This document shows, piece after piece, positions 40,802-45,361 of a DNA stretch of 64,000 nt (within the stretch, counting starts at the first letter, position 1; each line of letters begins with the position of its first letter). The position numbers and the translations under genes were made by a program. The stretch lies in assembly GCF_001050275.1 (NCBI RefSeq), contig NZ_BBYA01000002.1, forward strand, positions 124,001-188,000, read 5' to 3'. The notes under the pieces were generated by a model that made no database searches, was not told the DNA's origin, and worked only from the letters and a program-made list of their open reading frames with translations. This stretch comes from Leptolinea tardivitalis (GTDB taxonomy: Bacteria > Chloroflexota > Anaerolineae > Anaerolineales > Anaerolineaceae).

Positions 40802-41905
40802 TCATTCATCCATCTGGAAGGTATGATATTTATTGGCACATGGATTACCCCAGGCAACGTGCATCTGTCTGGCAGTTAGATCCATAACAAGGCTGGTGAT
40901 GGTTTTTTCTCGATCGAGAGGATCGGTATCATTCACTGCGTGGTTGCAGATCGAATCGGGATAGTTTACATGGTCCCGCAGGATTGCCTGGAGAGTTTGA
41001 GCTGTATGTTGATTTGTCTGTTCCAATAAACGGCGGGCACGGAAATATCGGACCCGTGTGCAAACGAGTTCATCAGGTTCGTCTTCCACCTGCTGCATTA
41101 AAGGATCAAGATAGTGATTGGTATGGGCAATTGCTCCGCTTTCTGAATAGAGCAGGGCAAAATGCCGCGCAGAGACTTCCACGTTATACATTTCACCGCT
41201 GTCGTGTGCCAGCAAATGATTGTAACCGGCGGCGCGGAGTGGGGCCAGCATATGTCGGATGGCTTCCGCAGGAGTTCGGGCTGAAAGTACGGCTCTTGAA
41301 AGCACTACACGGGGAATGCCAATTCGGCAATCAGATGGATATACGGAATCACAGCACTGAGCTATACCGGCCGCATTAAAACCGATATTGGGCAGCAAGC
41401 CGCCATATGTCATGGCCAGGAATGTTGGTTCGTCATCTGGTGTACCATGAATGATAAACACATCTGGTTCATCTTCAGGAACCCAGTCTTCATTATGACC
41501 GATTAAGATATGTCCATTGGCCGTTCGCTGCTCATTGACACCGATGCTGGTGCATTTGGTTAAATGAAGGGCATCCGTTGTCACAGCTTCCATAGCATTC
41601 AAGACCACAAGATCGGAAAAGGGAACATCGGCCCCTTCAGCTATGCCCTGCAATTCTTCAACGACTTTTGGATAACGTTCCTGGGCGAACGGTAGATATT
41701 TTCGCGCCTGAATTTCGGCGCCTTCCCAGGTTAACTGAAGAGATTCATAGGTGGAAGCCAGCAGGTTTCGGGCATCCTCCAGACTGTGTTTGACCTGCGA
41801 GGAAGTTTGTTCACCAATTTGACGACCCATTTCACGGTGTGATCCGCTTACATGTATCAACATCGGTGGACTGTTATGTGTGGGGGTGAAATTATCATTG
41901 CTCAT
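40802..41905 (-). CDS. C45-family autoproteolytic acyltransferase/hydrolase
   Basis: A 367-residue Ntn-hydrolase fold protein related to isopenicillin-N acyltransferase (peptidase C45). The nucleophile Cys is in LTKCTSIG (about residue 115), followed by NGHILIGHNEDWVPED, where the HNxDW pattern is diagnostic. The precursor should cleave itself before this Cys, leaving a subunit of about 114 residues. Bacterial members hydrolyse or transfer acyl groups on peptides or amides of unknown identity. No signal peptide is seen, so it is probably cytoplasmic. The start ATG lies seven bases after a -10 box with no ribosome-binding site. Confidence 0.85.
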   Translation of the reverse strand: MSNDNFTPTHNSPPMLIHVSGSHREMGRQIGEQTSSQVKHSLEDARNLLASTYESLQLTWEGAEIQARKYLPFAQERYPKVVEELQGIAEGADVPFSDLVVLNAMEAVTTDALHLTKCTSIGVNEQRTANGHILIGHNEDWVPEDEPDVFIIHGTPDDEPTFLAMTYGGLLPNIGFNAAGIAQCCDSVYPSDCRIGIPRVVLSRAVLSARTPAEAIRHMLAPLRAAGYNHLLAHDSGEMYNVEVSARHFALLYSESGAIAHTNHYLDPLMQQVEDEPDELVCTRVRYFRARRLLEQTNQHTAQTLQAILRDHVNYPDSICNHAVNDTDPLDREKTITSLVMDLTARQMHVAWGNPCANKYHTFQMDE

Positions 41906-41941: not shown

Positions 41942-42033
41942 GCTGACTGTATGAATTATTTTTTCGGCGATATCATTTGAGCAGAAAAATCCTCAATTAG
42001 AAAAGATGTTGAAAAACTAATTTGAGAAATAAA

Positions 42034-42070
42034 AGAAGAAGAACGGAATTTGAATCCGTCCTTCTTCTTA
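42034..42070 (-). terminator. Terminator of the sigma-factor operon
   Basis: A stem of AAGAAGAACGGA with TCCGTCCTTCTTCTT (small bulge) and a short loop. On the minus strand it is followed by TTTTATTTC, 24 bases after the lipoprotein stop. Confidence 0.7.
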
Positions 42071-42093: not shown

Positions 42094-42966
42094 TCAGAGA
42101 GAATTCCCATTCTCGCTGATTAATTCCAGATTGCCAACGCCCATGTCGATTTCAATCTTCAATTCAGGGCCAGATGACTTTTGTGTCCTGTATTTATTGG
42201 AATCCACTGTCCATGTTCCTTTCAGGGAAACATTGCTTACGCCTCCAGAAAGGGTGATTGTGGCAGCCCGGTCGGATGGAATGATAATCTTCATATTGCT
42301 CAAGCCGCTTTTTATTTCGACTCGGGCATCCTGTTTCATATCGCCATTAAAGTCCAGTGTATACGAACCGGCGCCGCTTTCAAAAAAGAGATTCTTGAAA
42401 TTTGCATTTCCAAGGTTGAGTAAACTGACCTGGGATGCCCCGGTGTGATACCGGAAATCTTCCAGAGTGGTTTTATTCGGCTGATTAAAAACGACCTTTG
42501 ATTGAGATGCACCGTCATCGATGGTTAATTCCTGAACCTGGATATCACCGAATGTGATATTGCTGGTATAGGCACCGGCGTTTATATCCAGGTTGATGGG
42601 TTTCTGTTTGCCGACCTTCAAATCCCAGTTGTTAATGAGATCTCCGGATGGAATGGTTACTGAATCTGTTTTGTCACCCTGAGAGATTGTTACTTCATCA
42701 TCAGAACGGGAGATTTCCGGTTTCCAGATCGACACGTTGGTACGAATTTCACCTTCAACAAATTTCTCTGAGCCTTCATTGATGTTTAATTTTCCGGCAC
42801 CCATTTTAATCGCAAGCCTGGGGGTATCTGTCGTTGACGGATAGGCTTCTGATATTTTTGTCACAACTTCCGGGCCGGTTTTCACTTTGGGCCATTGCAC
42901 CGAGAAGTTGCAGGCCATAGAGGTCATTAGTAATATTGAAAGGATTATCAGGATCTTCTTTTTCAT
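42094..42966 (-). CDS. LiaF/DUF2154-like lipoprotein
   Basis: A 290-residue lipoprotein (lipobox LLMTSMAC, Cys about residue 19). Most of the mature part is a right-handed beta-rich repeat of short strands (KLNINEGSEKFVEGEI, LDINAGAYTSNITFGD, VEIKSGLSNMKIIIPS, GVSNVSLKG, GVGNLEL), matching the DUF2154/LiaF C-terminal (toastrack) fold. In Firmicutes, LiaF-type domains modulate envelope-stress signalling. ATG 42966 is chosen because AGGAAA lies upstream. It is the last gene of the sigma operon, 22 bases after the bactofilin-like gene, and is probably an output or feedback element for envelope stress. Confidence 0.75.
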   Translation of the reverse strand: MKKKILIILSILLMTSMACNFSVQWPKVKTGPEVVTKISEAYPSTTDTPRLAIKMGAGKLNINEGSEKFVEGEIRTNVSIWKPEISRSDDEVTISQGDKTDSVTIPSGDLINNWDLKVGKQKPINLDINAGAYTSNITFGDIQVQELTIDDGASQSKVVFNQPNKTTLEDFRYHTGASQVSLLNLGNANFKNLFFESGAGSYTLDFNGDMKQDARVEIKSGLSNMKIIIPSDRAATITLSGGVSNVSLKGTWTVDSNKYRTQKSSGPELKIEIDMGVGNLELISENGNSL

Positions 42967-42988
42967 TCTATTTTTCCTGTAAAAAATA

Positions 42989-44176
42989 TCAGTCAATTTT
43001 TTTCTCAGATTGATTTTCTTCTCCAGATTTCTGAGATCGGGATTTTACTTTTTTCTCTGGTTTCACGGAATCTTCGGCTGGAGGGACTTCACTTGCAGTA
43101 TTCGTTTCTGAAACAAAGGTGGAGTCAACAACATCGACTGATTTTTGAGGGGATGCAGACGCCACATATTGCGACTGAAATGGATTGGCGGGCGGGATAG
43201 GTGAGGCGGGGGGAACTTCAACCTGAATAGTTGGTCTGCCTCCGGGTTTTTGAATATTGCGGGTACCAAAAGCGGACATCACAACACCACCTGTTGCCAC
43301 CAGTGCAATAATCACTGGAATCACCCAGCCCACACAGGGGATAGCTCCCAAAAGGGAGGAAAGAATGGATAAGAAAAATGTACCTACACCTGCGCTTACA
43401 GCCGGAGCCCAAGTACTCTTGAACAGACTTGCGATGCGATCACCTAAAAGCTGACCTACAGCGATCCAACCTAGAATTACGCCAAGACCAAAAATAACAA
43501 TAGCGATAAGACTCAACGGGATCAGGATCAACGTGATTGCCAGAATGATGATTACAAAGGGGAAGAGTATCCACGTCAAGAGGCCAATGGCACCACCCGC
43601 AACCGGACTATCTTCGATAGCTTTGGTCACATTATTGGTCTGGCGGGGTGCAAAGAGCATCACCAGTACTGCCAGAAGTGCGATTACAAGAGACCGCAGG
43701 AGGCTTCCCATAGCATCACTGAAGGGTTTAACAATGGCGGGTACAGCCACTTTCGGAACATCCGGAATCTCAACGCCACTTTCTGATTGTGTAATAAATT
43801 TGCCTTGAATGACGGCTGAATCTGATTTGTTCACACTTGCGGCAACAGTAGATACATCGCCCTGAACGACTGCGGTATCATCCAGTGTGATGGACCCGCC
43901 CAGACCATTGATTCCACCATTGATCGTTCCGGCTGCAATAACACTTCCCCCAATAACTGTCACATCGCCGTTGACAGTTGATCCTTCATCTAGACTTACA
44001 GCCCCTCCAAAAATGGACAAATTACCATTAATCGTCTCGCCTTTTGACAGACGGTATGTTCCACCCATAATAAACTTATCACCATCATTGGAAGAACTGG
44101 CACACCCTGATGTAAACAGGGCGAACAACAGGACAACGAAGGCGATTCCAAACATTAACCGTAGTTTTTTATTCAT
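42989..44176 (-). CDS. Secreted bactofilin-like lipoprotein with C-terminal membrane helices
   Basis: A 395-residue protein. A lipoprotein signal (LLFALFTSGC) precedes a short bactofilin-type beta-helix (about residues 38-125) of turns such as INGNLSIFGGAV, VNGDVTVIGGSV and VVQGDVSTVAASV. It is followed by about four membrane helices (about 150-310), a Pro-rich segment and a Lys/Glu-rich cytoplasmic tail. Bactofilins normally polymerise in the cytoplasm; the lipobox and topology place this beta-helix outside the membrane. The start overlaps the anti-sigma gene by eight bases. Probable role: envelope structure or stress response. Confidence 0.75.
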   Translation of the reverse strand: MNKKLRLMFGIAFVVLLFALFTSGCASSSNDGDKFIMGGTYRLSKGETINGNLSIFGGAVSLDEGSTVNGDVTVIGGSVIAAGTINGGINGLGGSITLDDTAVVQGDVSTVAASVNKSDSAVIQGKFITQSESGVEIPDVPKVAVPAIVKPFSDAMGSLLRSLVIALLAVLVMLFAPRQTNNVTKAIEDSPVAGGAIGLLTWILFPFVIIILAITLILIPLSLIAIVIFGLGVILGWIAVGQLLGDRIASLFKSTWAPAVSAGVGTFFLSILSSLLGAIPCVGWVIPVIIALVATGGVVMSAFGTRNIQKPGGRPTIQVEVPPASPIPPANPFQSQYVASASPQKSVDVVDSTFVSETNTASEVPPAEDSVKPEKKVKSRSQKSGEENQSEKKID

Positions 44177-44723
44177 TTGTTTTTACTCCTTGTGTGGAGA
44201 CTTTCCATACAGATATGATCCATCCACTCGTCAGCAATACAACCAGACTGGCAGAACCGGCCACAATGGCCAGGGTGATCGGAAGCGGAATGTAATGCAT
44301 CCAGGTTTTCACCATCTGGAGCATATTGTCCAGTTGAAAAGCAGCCTGAATGGTAGAACTCATCAATCCCGAGATTACCTCATTCGGGGATTGCGTAAGG
44401 AATAAGGTTCCGAGGTAACCAATTGATACAATAACAGTAATCACGAGTGTCCAACCGAGAAAAAAGTACGATTGAAGACGCCGGGCTTCCTCTTCGCGTT
44501 GAGCAGCCAATACAGCGAACCTTCGGGAAAAACCGGGAGAAGGAGATTCGAATGTGGATGATCTGATCAGGTCTTCCACACCGGATAATCCTTCTTGAAT
44601 AGATTTGCAATGCGGGCATATGGACAGATGATTATCCAGTTCTGTCAGCTGAGATGGTGTCAATGGATCTCCTGAAAGAATCCAGTTTTCAAAGGGCTGG
44701 TGTTCCATGTAGGCTCCTTTCAA
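44169..44723 (-). CDS. Membrane anti-sigma factor with zinc-finger domain
   Basis: A 184-residue protein. The N-terminal ZAS-type domain reads HLSICPHCK (His-x3-Cys-x2-Cys, residues 28-36), the zinc-binding anti-sigma motif. A helical linker (about 60-85) leads to two membrane segments (about 88-112 and 150-172). It should hold the ECF sigma factor at the membrane until an envelope signal releases it, by redox change at the zinc site or by proteolysis. The start lies 35 bases inside the sigma-factor gene, giving coupled, roughly equal expression. Confidence 0.88.
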   Translation of the reverse strand: MKGAYMEHQPFENWILSGDPLTPSQLTELDNHLSICPHCKSIQEGLSGVEDLIRSSTFESPSPGFSRRFAVLAAQREEEARRLQSYFFLGWTLVITVIVSIGYLGTLFLTQSPNEVISGLMSSTIQAAFQLDNMLQMVKTWMHYIPLPITLAIVAGSASLVVLLTSGWIISVWKVSTQGVKTNE

Positions 44724-45276
44724 GTTCAGCAGGGGCAGAAGATTGATATTCTTCGGCCAACTGCCTGCGTGCGCGAAATAACCGACTCTTCACGGCACTA
44801 GTGGAGAGTTGTAATGTGCTGGCAATTTCTTCTTCAGTCATTTCATACCAATACCTTAATACAATGGCTGCACGATCTTGCGGTTGCAATTTATCCAGCA
44901 GTCTGTGTAAAACTTTGTTTTCCATTTGTTTACTTATCACTCTCTCCGGATTAGGAGATGGATCTGGAGCATCTTCTTCAGGAAGGATATCGATATCTAC
45001 CATGGGTAATTTGCGCTTGCGCTGCTGGTCGATACAATAATGAGCCGCAATTGAAAGCAGCCATGTAGCAAATGAACGGGACGTGTCATATTTCTTCATA
45101 TTCTGATAAGCACGCCAGAATGTTTCTTGAGCCGCATCCTCCGCTTCCTGGGCATCACCCAGCATGCGATAGCATAGGTTGAATACTGGTCTTTGGTACG
45201 TTTCAACCAATTGCGTAAATGCATCCATGTTTCCCTGGAGAGCTTGCTCCAACCAGGTATTCTCTGCTGTGATCAA
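44689..45276 (-). CDS. ECF-type RNA polymerase sigma factor
   Basis: A 195-residue sigma-70-family ECF factor. Region 2 (about residues 20-95) has FNLCYRMLGDAQEAEDAAQETFWRA and contacts the -10 element. Region 4 (about 130-185) has YWYEMTEEEIASTLQLSTSAVKSRLFRARRQL as its helix-turn-helix in two adjoining helices. It starts with TTG, supported by AGGAG seven bases upstream. GGAACC, the usual ECF -35 core, lies at 45318-45323 on this strand, so the operon may be self-activated. It is followed by its anti-sigma factor in an overlapping arrangement. Confidence 0.93.
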   Translation of the reverse strand: MITAENTWLEQALQGNMDAFTQLVETYQRPVFNLCYRMLGDAQEAEDAAQETFWRAYQNMKKYDTSRSFATWLLSIAAHYCIDQQRKRKLPMVDIDILPEEDAPDPSPNPERVISKQMENKVLHRLLDKLQPQDRAAIVLRYWYEMTEEEIASTLQLSTSAVKSRLFRARRQLAEEYQSSAPAELERSLHGTPAL

Positions 45277-45317
45277 CGAATACTCCTATAATTTTCTCTA
45301 TAAAAGTATACGGAGAA

Positions 45318-45323
45318 GGTTCC
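45318..45323 (-). promoter_or_regulatory. Candidate ECF-type -35 element
   Basis: GGAACC on the minus strand, 42 bases before the sigma-factor start. A TATACT at 45305-45310 on the same strand offers an alternative, housekeeping-type -10 box. Which one is used cannot be settled from sequence. Confidence 0.35.
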
Positions 45324-45336
45324 TAATAGTTGCAAA

Positions 45337-45361
45337 AAAAGACGCCTGTCAGGCGTCTTTT
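45337..45361 (-). terminator. Intrinsic terminator of the deoxynucleoside kinase gene
   Basis: AAAAGACGCCT/AGGCGTCTTTT with a three-base loop. On the minus strand a seven-T run follows. Confidence 0.85.

Follow-up and report, generated by a model that had tools for sequence, protein, structure and literature searches.

A 64,000-nucleotide (nt) stretch of the Leptolinea tardivitalis genome (contig NZ_BBYA01000002.1, positions 124,001 to 188,000; hereafter the window) contains, on the minus strand from 45276 to 42094, four co-oriented genes for a sigma factor of the extracytoplasmic function (ECF) type, a membrane anti-sigma factor, a membrane protein with a bactofilin-type beta-helix, here called BacTM, and a Toastrack protein. 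The operon probably encodes an autoregulated, ECF-controlled envelope-stress response resembling the phage shock protein (PSP)/Lia systems, in which the anti-sigma factor works together with BacTM as a dedicated, outward-facing bactofilin-fold partner. Gene linkage, fused reading frames and a promoter element, all read from sequence, form the basis of this proposal; the topology is predicted, and we infer the complex, the signal and the release of the sigma factor.

Operon and encoded proteins

The sigma and anti-sigma reading frames share 20 nt, those of the anti-sigma factor and BacTM share 8 nt, and 22 nt separate BacTM from the Toastrack gene. An earlier interpretation made from the letters of the window alone (the sequence-only reading) had described four overlapping or closely spaced genes ending at a terminator, which was borne out in coordinates, strand, overlaps and a 15-pair stem with T-rich tail. 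The features are:

45307-45334, minus strand: ECF-type autoregulatory promoter element TGCAAC-N16-CGTATA (AAC-N15..17-CGTA is enriched upstream of sigma genes)
44689-45276, minus strand: ECF sigma factor, 195 amino acids (aa), TTG start (Sigma70_r2 and Sigma70_r4_2 over cut-off)
44169-44708, minus strand: membrane anti-sigma factor, 179 aa, best start ATG at 44708 (HLSICPHC, two membrane helices)
42989-44176, minus strand: BacTM, bactofilin-fold membrane protein, 395 aa, with signal peptide, beta-helix, membrane helices and variable tail
44102-44176, minus strand: BacTM signal peptide ending at the lipobox Cys25 (FTSGC; Gly24-Cys25 kept in near relatives)
43787-44077, minus strand: BacTM residues 34-130, a bactofilin-fold beta-helix with a predicted location outside the membrane (model, 6rib alignment, charge)
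43262-43705, minus strand: BacTM residues 158-305, the membrane region (hydropathy shows four helices, alignment and charge pattern indicate five)
42094-42966, minus strand: Toastrack (DUF2154-type) predicted lipoprotein, 290 aa, ATG at 42966 (Toast_rack_N match)
42033-42069, minus strand: intrinsic terminator 3' of the operon (15-pair stem and T-rich tail)

Since eight terminator-like sites were found in the window versus 4.8 expected, the terminator scan alone gives weak support. The near relatives identified by name are Leptolinea and Anaerolinea (Anaerolineae, Chloroflexota).

The 195-aa sigma protein contains regions 2 and 4 (Pfam Sigma70_r2, E 1.9e-20, residues 23-89; Sigma70_r4_2, E 5.5e-17, residues 123-173; both over cut-off) without region 3 or 1, as is the case for ECF sigma factors. 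In the anti-sigma protein, the sequence HLSICPHC, read directly, corresponds to the HxxxCxxC motif, while the profiles Pfam zf-HC2 (E 0.026) and NCBIfam antisigmaE (E 0.0063) stayed under their cut-offs. Two hydropathy helices (residues 87-105 and 142-160) are preceded by an additional helix before the membrane. Motif, membrane helices and the overlap with the ECF sigma gene mark the product as a putative membrane anti-sigma factor of the zinc anti-sigma (ZAS) type. The pair had been named as ECF sigma factor and zinc anti-sigma factor before, which the Sigma70 profiles and HxxxCxxC confirm, with zf-HC2 under its cut-off. Some motif-less anti-sigma open reading frames (ORFs) of other genomes (L053, L085, L103) start near the PGFxxRVxxR helix that precedes their first membrane helix, which looks like a loss of the zinc region.

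Conservation of the unit and fused reading frames

Of 199 class genomes sampled, 138 gave a BacTM match at E 0.001 in a one-sequence search; a profile search at E 1e-6 matched 105 of 201 phylum genomes, long unlinked paralogues being caught too. The surroundings of 143 loci were read (4 named, 79 from the class, 40 from family, order and phylum samples, plus a further 20, of which 19 came from the class and one from the phylum), covering 98 of the 138 matching class genomes. Because loci were chosen by match strength, mostly best first, linkage among weak matches is less well covered. A sigma gene lies upstream of the BacTM gene, on the same strand and within 4 kb, in 131 of the 143 loci (78/83, 34/40 and 19/20), and the sample from other classes (L152-L185) gave 28 of 34. 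Twelve loci are without an upstream sigma gene (L039, L089, L105, L106, L107, L171, L174, L175, L180, L181, L182 and L293); in three of these (L089, L106, L175) the contig ends upstream. The anti-sigma profile found no match in nine of the 131 sigma-linked loci. Judged by this gene order, sigma factor, anti-sigma factor and BacTM are a conserved unit. The linkage of lipoproteins to sigma genes elsewhere, on which the sequence-only reading had staked its proposal, thus holds across Chloroflexota for the BacTM gene, while the Toastrack gene is a minority feature (13/143). Two loci (L097, L108) carry two tandem bactofilin-fold genes behind sigma and anti-sigma genes.

In L178 and L185, anti-sigma and BacTM profiles match one and the same ORF, and in L172 and L302 this layout was recognised by resemblance. 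These four genomes represent two families (L172, L178 and L302, f54; L185, f103). The L185 protein possesses HxxxCxxC and matches zf-HC2 (E 0.001) and Bactofilin (E 1.8e-4), both under the curated cut-offs. Hydropathy helices, determined for three of the four proteins, part the N-terminal anti-sigma-type region from the beta-helix, which is consistent with an anti-sigma part inside and a beta-helix outside the membrane. The fused frames favour a role of BacTM in the regulatory complex.

According to the chief rival reading, which is conceivable though unlikely, BacTM is solely an output of the system, an envelope-stabilising protein made together with the sigma factor for the same stress and devoid of any control function. 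Such a role would suit its position in an autoregulated operon, with which it is probably induced, the existence of long paralogues without sigma gene and the fact that a Toastrack gene can stand between the anti-sigma and BacTM genes. It accounts poorly, however, for the near-constant pairing with the anti-sigma gene across the phylum sample and for single-frame fusions in two families.

Promoter element and candidate regulon

Words were counted upstream of 111 sigma genes, that of the window and those of 110 loci. TGCAACTTT-like and GCGTATA words emerged, and AAC-N15..17-CGTA was present in 99 of the 111 regions versus 3.3 in first-order resampled sequence (class level 80/83, other classes 19/28), with spacers other than 16 or 17 only at chance level. 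The strict form [TC]G[ACT]AAC-N16/17-CGTA occurred in 92 regions. In the window, a -35-like TGCAAC (45334-45329) and a -10-like CGTATA (45312-45307) enclose a spacer of 16 nt. Self-control had been attributed to GGAACC. The autoregulation is supported by the shared element in front of the sigma gene, but the element is TGCAAC-N16-CGTATA: GGAACC occurs once, at 45323-45318, and was rejected as -35 since it lies within this spacer and GAAC-anchored spaced motifs were not enriched in the sigma upstream regions. The L. tardivitalis genome gave 17 matches to sigma70 region 2, 16 of which were read (the clipped L318 was left out). The strict element precedes the sigma gene of the operon and none of the 15 others.

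A search of ten genomes for TGHAACY-N15-CGTATA yielded 23 sites versus 9 for the reversed pattern. The genes just downstream encode this sigma factor (6), a small two-helix protein with weak DUF5362 similarity (4), PspC (3), DUF2807 (2), DUF2085 (2), LiaF-TM (2), DUF7544 (1) and another membrane protein (1); two sites have no convincing gene. One representative of each named class, and both LiaF-TM proteins, were examined with Pfam, the rest being assigned by resemblance.

PspC was tested with one gene per genome in 30 genomes of the class (30 loci among the matches listed). The strict element lies at most 200 nt upstream of the PspC domain in 14 of the 30 loci versus 0.05 expected, the relaxed one in 16 versus 0.37. 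All 14 strict elements belong to the 20 genomes in which sigma, anti-sigma and BacTM genes are linked (the trio), compared to none in the 10 genomes without this trio (Fisher p 0.0003, uncorrected for phylogeny), whereby absence of the trio is a search result on draft genomes with some matches near contig ends. A rough count by genus gave 14/20 versus 0/7 (p about 0.002), and an earlier split of the genomes 14/21 versus 0/9 (p 0.0009). Trio status was taken from the one-sequence search first; G096 was assigned to the genomes with trio by profile search and G026, whose BacTM gene has no upstream sigma gene, to those without. The PspC gene of L. tardivitalis itself (L207/L228) is preceded by the element. 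A PspC-type gene under the same control, as taken here to define a PSP/Lia-like response, is indicated by the promoter element only.

For the small two-helix genes, the strict element was found at 4 of 17 versus 0.04 expected. The corresponding values for DUF2807 genes are 3 of 17 and 0.035, with none at the L. tardivitalis gene; 17 of 19 loci were used, L337 and L338 being pieces of a second gene in G005. Allowing one mismatch, the L. tardivitalis genome contains 14 sites versus 8 for the control. One-mismatch elements were seen there in front of a transglycosylase-associated (GlsB-like) gene (L218) and a holin-family gene with four transmembrane segments (L220). PspC is the best supported target, judging from these upstream sequences, and the other targets vary by lineage. 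The switch appears to turn on membrane-protection genes, and the envelope-stress theme already proposed for the operon gains support from the element shared by PspC and other membrane-stress genes.

Predicted fold and topology of BacTM

BacTM of the window gave no Pfam match even at E 1, nor was it found by a PF04519 search of its genome. By contrast, PF04519 (Bactofilin) matches 22 of 30 BacTM relatives at E 0.1 or better, the best value being 2.3e-8. A structure model from the single sequence, without alignment, reached a mean predicted local distance difference test (pLDDT) score of 59.0, with a poor membrane part and a good beta-helix (residues about 34-130, strands with pLDDT of about 74-93 per block of ten). 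As a second model from five sequences (mean pLDDT 54.7) was no better overall, the first one was used for fold searches. The Thermus bactofilin 6rib was the top row in Foldseek with a weak E of 0.048, no match reaching E 0.001 or better, and again the top hit in VIA-align (Z 13.4, 92 residues, 2.2 A), where BacA 2n3d scored Z 11.3. The bactofilin fold is hence assigned on the basis of the VIA-align score and the Pfam matches of relatives. Characterised bactofilins are cytoplasmic and polymerise via their beta-helix fold. Since BacTM carries a signal peptide as well as membrane helices, four to five in number, it is termed a bactofilin-fold protein and not a classical bactofilin. The bactofilin call that had been made by eye was accordingly right as to the fold but had missed the membrane helices. 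The L. tardivitalis genome also contains a classical short bactofilin (G000:C11:124378-124668; 157-aa frame, PF04519 E 8.7e-23) and, on contig C11, a longer secreted bactofilin-like membrane paralogue (L115, 3933-5339), similar to L171, L174 and L180-L182. These paralogues have about 390-470 aa; no sigma gene was present in the stretch read around L115 and similar ones.

The lipobox Gly24-Cys25 is invariant in the window protein and four near relatives (5/5 aligned). In the rest of the class, signal peptides have mostly AxA, signal-peptidase-I-type ends: a crude regular expression classified 78 of 85 as type I and 4 as type II, leaving 3 unclassified. The lipobox was therefore rejected as a general rule for BacTM and is regarded as a trait of the window's lineage. 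Beyond the beta-helix, hydropathy revealed four helices for BacTM of the window; some relatives have five. In 30 relatives, lysine and arginine make up 5.1% of the beta-helix, compared to 13.1% aspartate and glutamate. The positively charged residues amount to 11.9% in the loop after the first membrane helix, 0% in the hairpin of helices 2 and 3, 15.7% in the loop between helices 3 and 4, and 0.4% in the turn between helices 4 and 5. This pattern fits a topology with the beta-helix out, the first loop in, the hairpin out, the second loop in and the turn out.

The beta-helix is thus predicted to reside outside the membrane in fused and unfused forms. An outward bactofilin with lipobox had been postulated: signal peptides and charge agree with the orientation, the lipobox being lineage-specific. 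A cytoplasmic domain with the N-terminal helix as a mere anchor, as might be expected from the location of characterised bactofilins, is highly improbable in view of the cleavable-type signal peptides in most of the class, the lipobox in the window's lineage, the charge pattern and the beta-helix lying on the same side in the fused forms.

The sequence-only reading had further suggested that the sigma factor builds or monitors an extracytoplasmic beta-helical scaffold. While a polymer of this kind would be in line with the bactofilin fold, the outward topology and the polymerisation of known bactofilins, each beta-helix is tethered to membrane helices, in fusions to the anti-sigma factor as well, and only 13 of 143 loci have a linked Toastrack gene, which renders a polymeric scaffold improbable. 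Of the two verbs, the fusions come nearer to monitors; nothing in the present analysis indicates that this multi-helix membrane protein builds a scaffold.

The Toastrack gene

The last gene of the operon matches Toast_rack_N with E 3.2e-16 (59.8 bits versus a cut-off of 22) and PDB entry 4qrk with E 8.6e-12. It had been called a LiaF-like lipoprotein. A predicted lipoprotein it is, and its domain is Toastrack, but the matches to the LiaF C-terminal profiles remained under their cut-offs (PF09922, 19.6 bits versus 29; NF040535, 18.2 versus 57) and its sole helix is the signal peptide. In 12 of the 13 linked homologues a cysteine after the signal peptide is visible (the N-terminus of L087 could not be placed). 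The gene follows the BacTM gene in seven loci (L032-L035, L146-L148) and is located between the anti-sigma and BacTM genes in six (L055, L056, L064, L086, L087, L154). Toastrack-type proteins bearing lipoprotein-type signals were seen in the window (42094-42966) and at L205 and L206. In a study on PSP/Lia systems (Ravi et al. 2024, PMC11237479), Toastrack domains are argued to be intracellular, in contrast to the lipoprotein-type signal on Toastrack here.

Proposed mechanism and comparison with known systems

The sigma factor would be held at the inner membrane face by the two-helix zinc-type anti-sigma domain. Judging from the fused forms, anti-sigma factor and BacTM probably constitute a single membrane unit. 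BacTM would act with the anti-sigma factor and carry its beta-helix on the outer membrane face, so that it most likely represents the extracytoplasmic arm of the inhibitor complex (sensor or stabiliser, a co-anti-sigma factor). Disturbance of the envelope, perceived by the beta-helix or by the membrane helices, would release the sigma factor for transcription of its own operon and of PSP/Lia-like membrane-protection genes, pspC foremost. The operon of the window's lineage would additionally yield the Toastrack lipoprotein. More speculatively, and with considerable doubt, a single ECF sigma factor may govern the PSP-like response across Chloroflexota, with an inhibitor complex that reads the cell surface through the bactofilin-fold beta-helix. 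A cytoskeletal filament fold would then have moved outside the cell as the sensor arm of an anti-sigma factor and might control sigma release by assembling and disassembling on the membrane surface.

Several observations speak against a joint regulatory complex of this kind or limit its reach. Fusions stem from only two families, three of the four from f54, and the zinc motif is seen only in L185; in the unfused form, we infer the contact between BacTM and the anti-sigma factor. Six loci have the Toastrack gene between the anti-sigma and BacTM genes, and about 2 kb separate them in L283. HxxxCxxC is lacking in 18 of 79 anti-sigma ORFs (L032-L114). The architecture is not itself tied to regulation because similarly built long paralogues exist without sigma gene. 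As for the regulon, the PspC comparison ignores phylogeny and the targets vary, with the strict element at only 4/17 small-protein and 3/17 DUF2807 genes; the extra one-mismatch sites in L. tardivitalis are weak, given 14 versus 8 in the control. As AAC...CGT is widespread among ECF promoters, sites could be shared with other sigma factors, and a relaxed match was indeed detected upstream of two other L. tardivitalis sigma genes.

Among the components, ECF/ZAS switches, bactofilins, Toastrack and PspC have all been described before. In Bacillus subtilis, SigM is controlled by the two-protein membrane anti-sigma factor YhdL-YhdK. What both systems have in common is an ECF sigma factor, a membrane anti-sigma factor and a second membrane protein in one operon, an envelope-stress regulon and autoregulation. 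The SigM partner, however, is small and without bactofilin fold, whereas the partner described here has an outward bactofilin-fold domain that is fused to the anti-sigma factor in some genomes. With the bactofilins of Thermus (6rib) and BacA (2n3d), BacTM shares the beta-helix fold, supported by PF04519 in 22 of 30 relatives; it differs by its signal peptide, membrane helices, predicted outside location and the control of its operon by an ECF sigma factor. The halofilins of archaea are reportedly a distant bactofilin-fold family (work said to be by Curtis et al. in 2024). The Toastrack, PspC and LiaF-TM parts resemble the PSP/Lia systems, which comprise Toastrack, PspC and LiaI-LiaF-TM. Ravi et al. 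2024 (PMC11237479) already place operons in which a sigma factor is linked to Toastrack among the PSP-like systems; the word bactofilin is absent from the examined text. By title and the opening of the abstract, no description of a link between sigma factor, anti-sigma factor and bactofilin was found in the literature, though work on ECF reclassification and halofilins could hold one.

A strong inverted repeat (AAAAGACGCC...) at 45337-45361 closes the upstream deoxynucleoside-kinase gene directly before the -35 element, so the operon looks insulated. Beyond the terminator, on the same strand, lies a gene of the acyl-CoA:6-aminopenicillanic acid acyltransferase family (40802-41905; AAT, E 2e-26).

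For Chloroflexota, a phylum whose envelope-stress responses are little described, the system would provide a master switch that can be tested, and its conserved promoter element makes the regulon readable from genome sequence. It would also put the bactofilin fold to a second use, outside the cytoplasm and coupled to the control of transcription, and the fused forms offer one protein in which the passage of a signal across the membrane may be studied.

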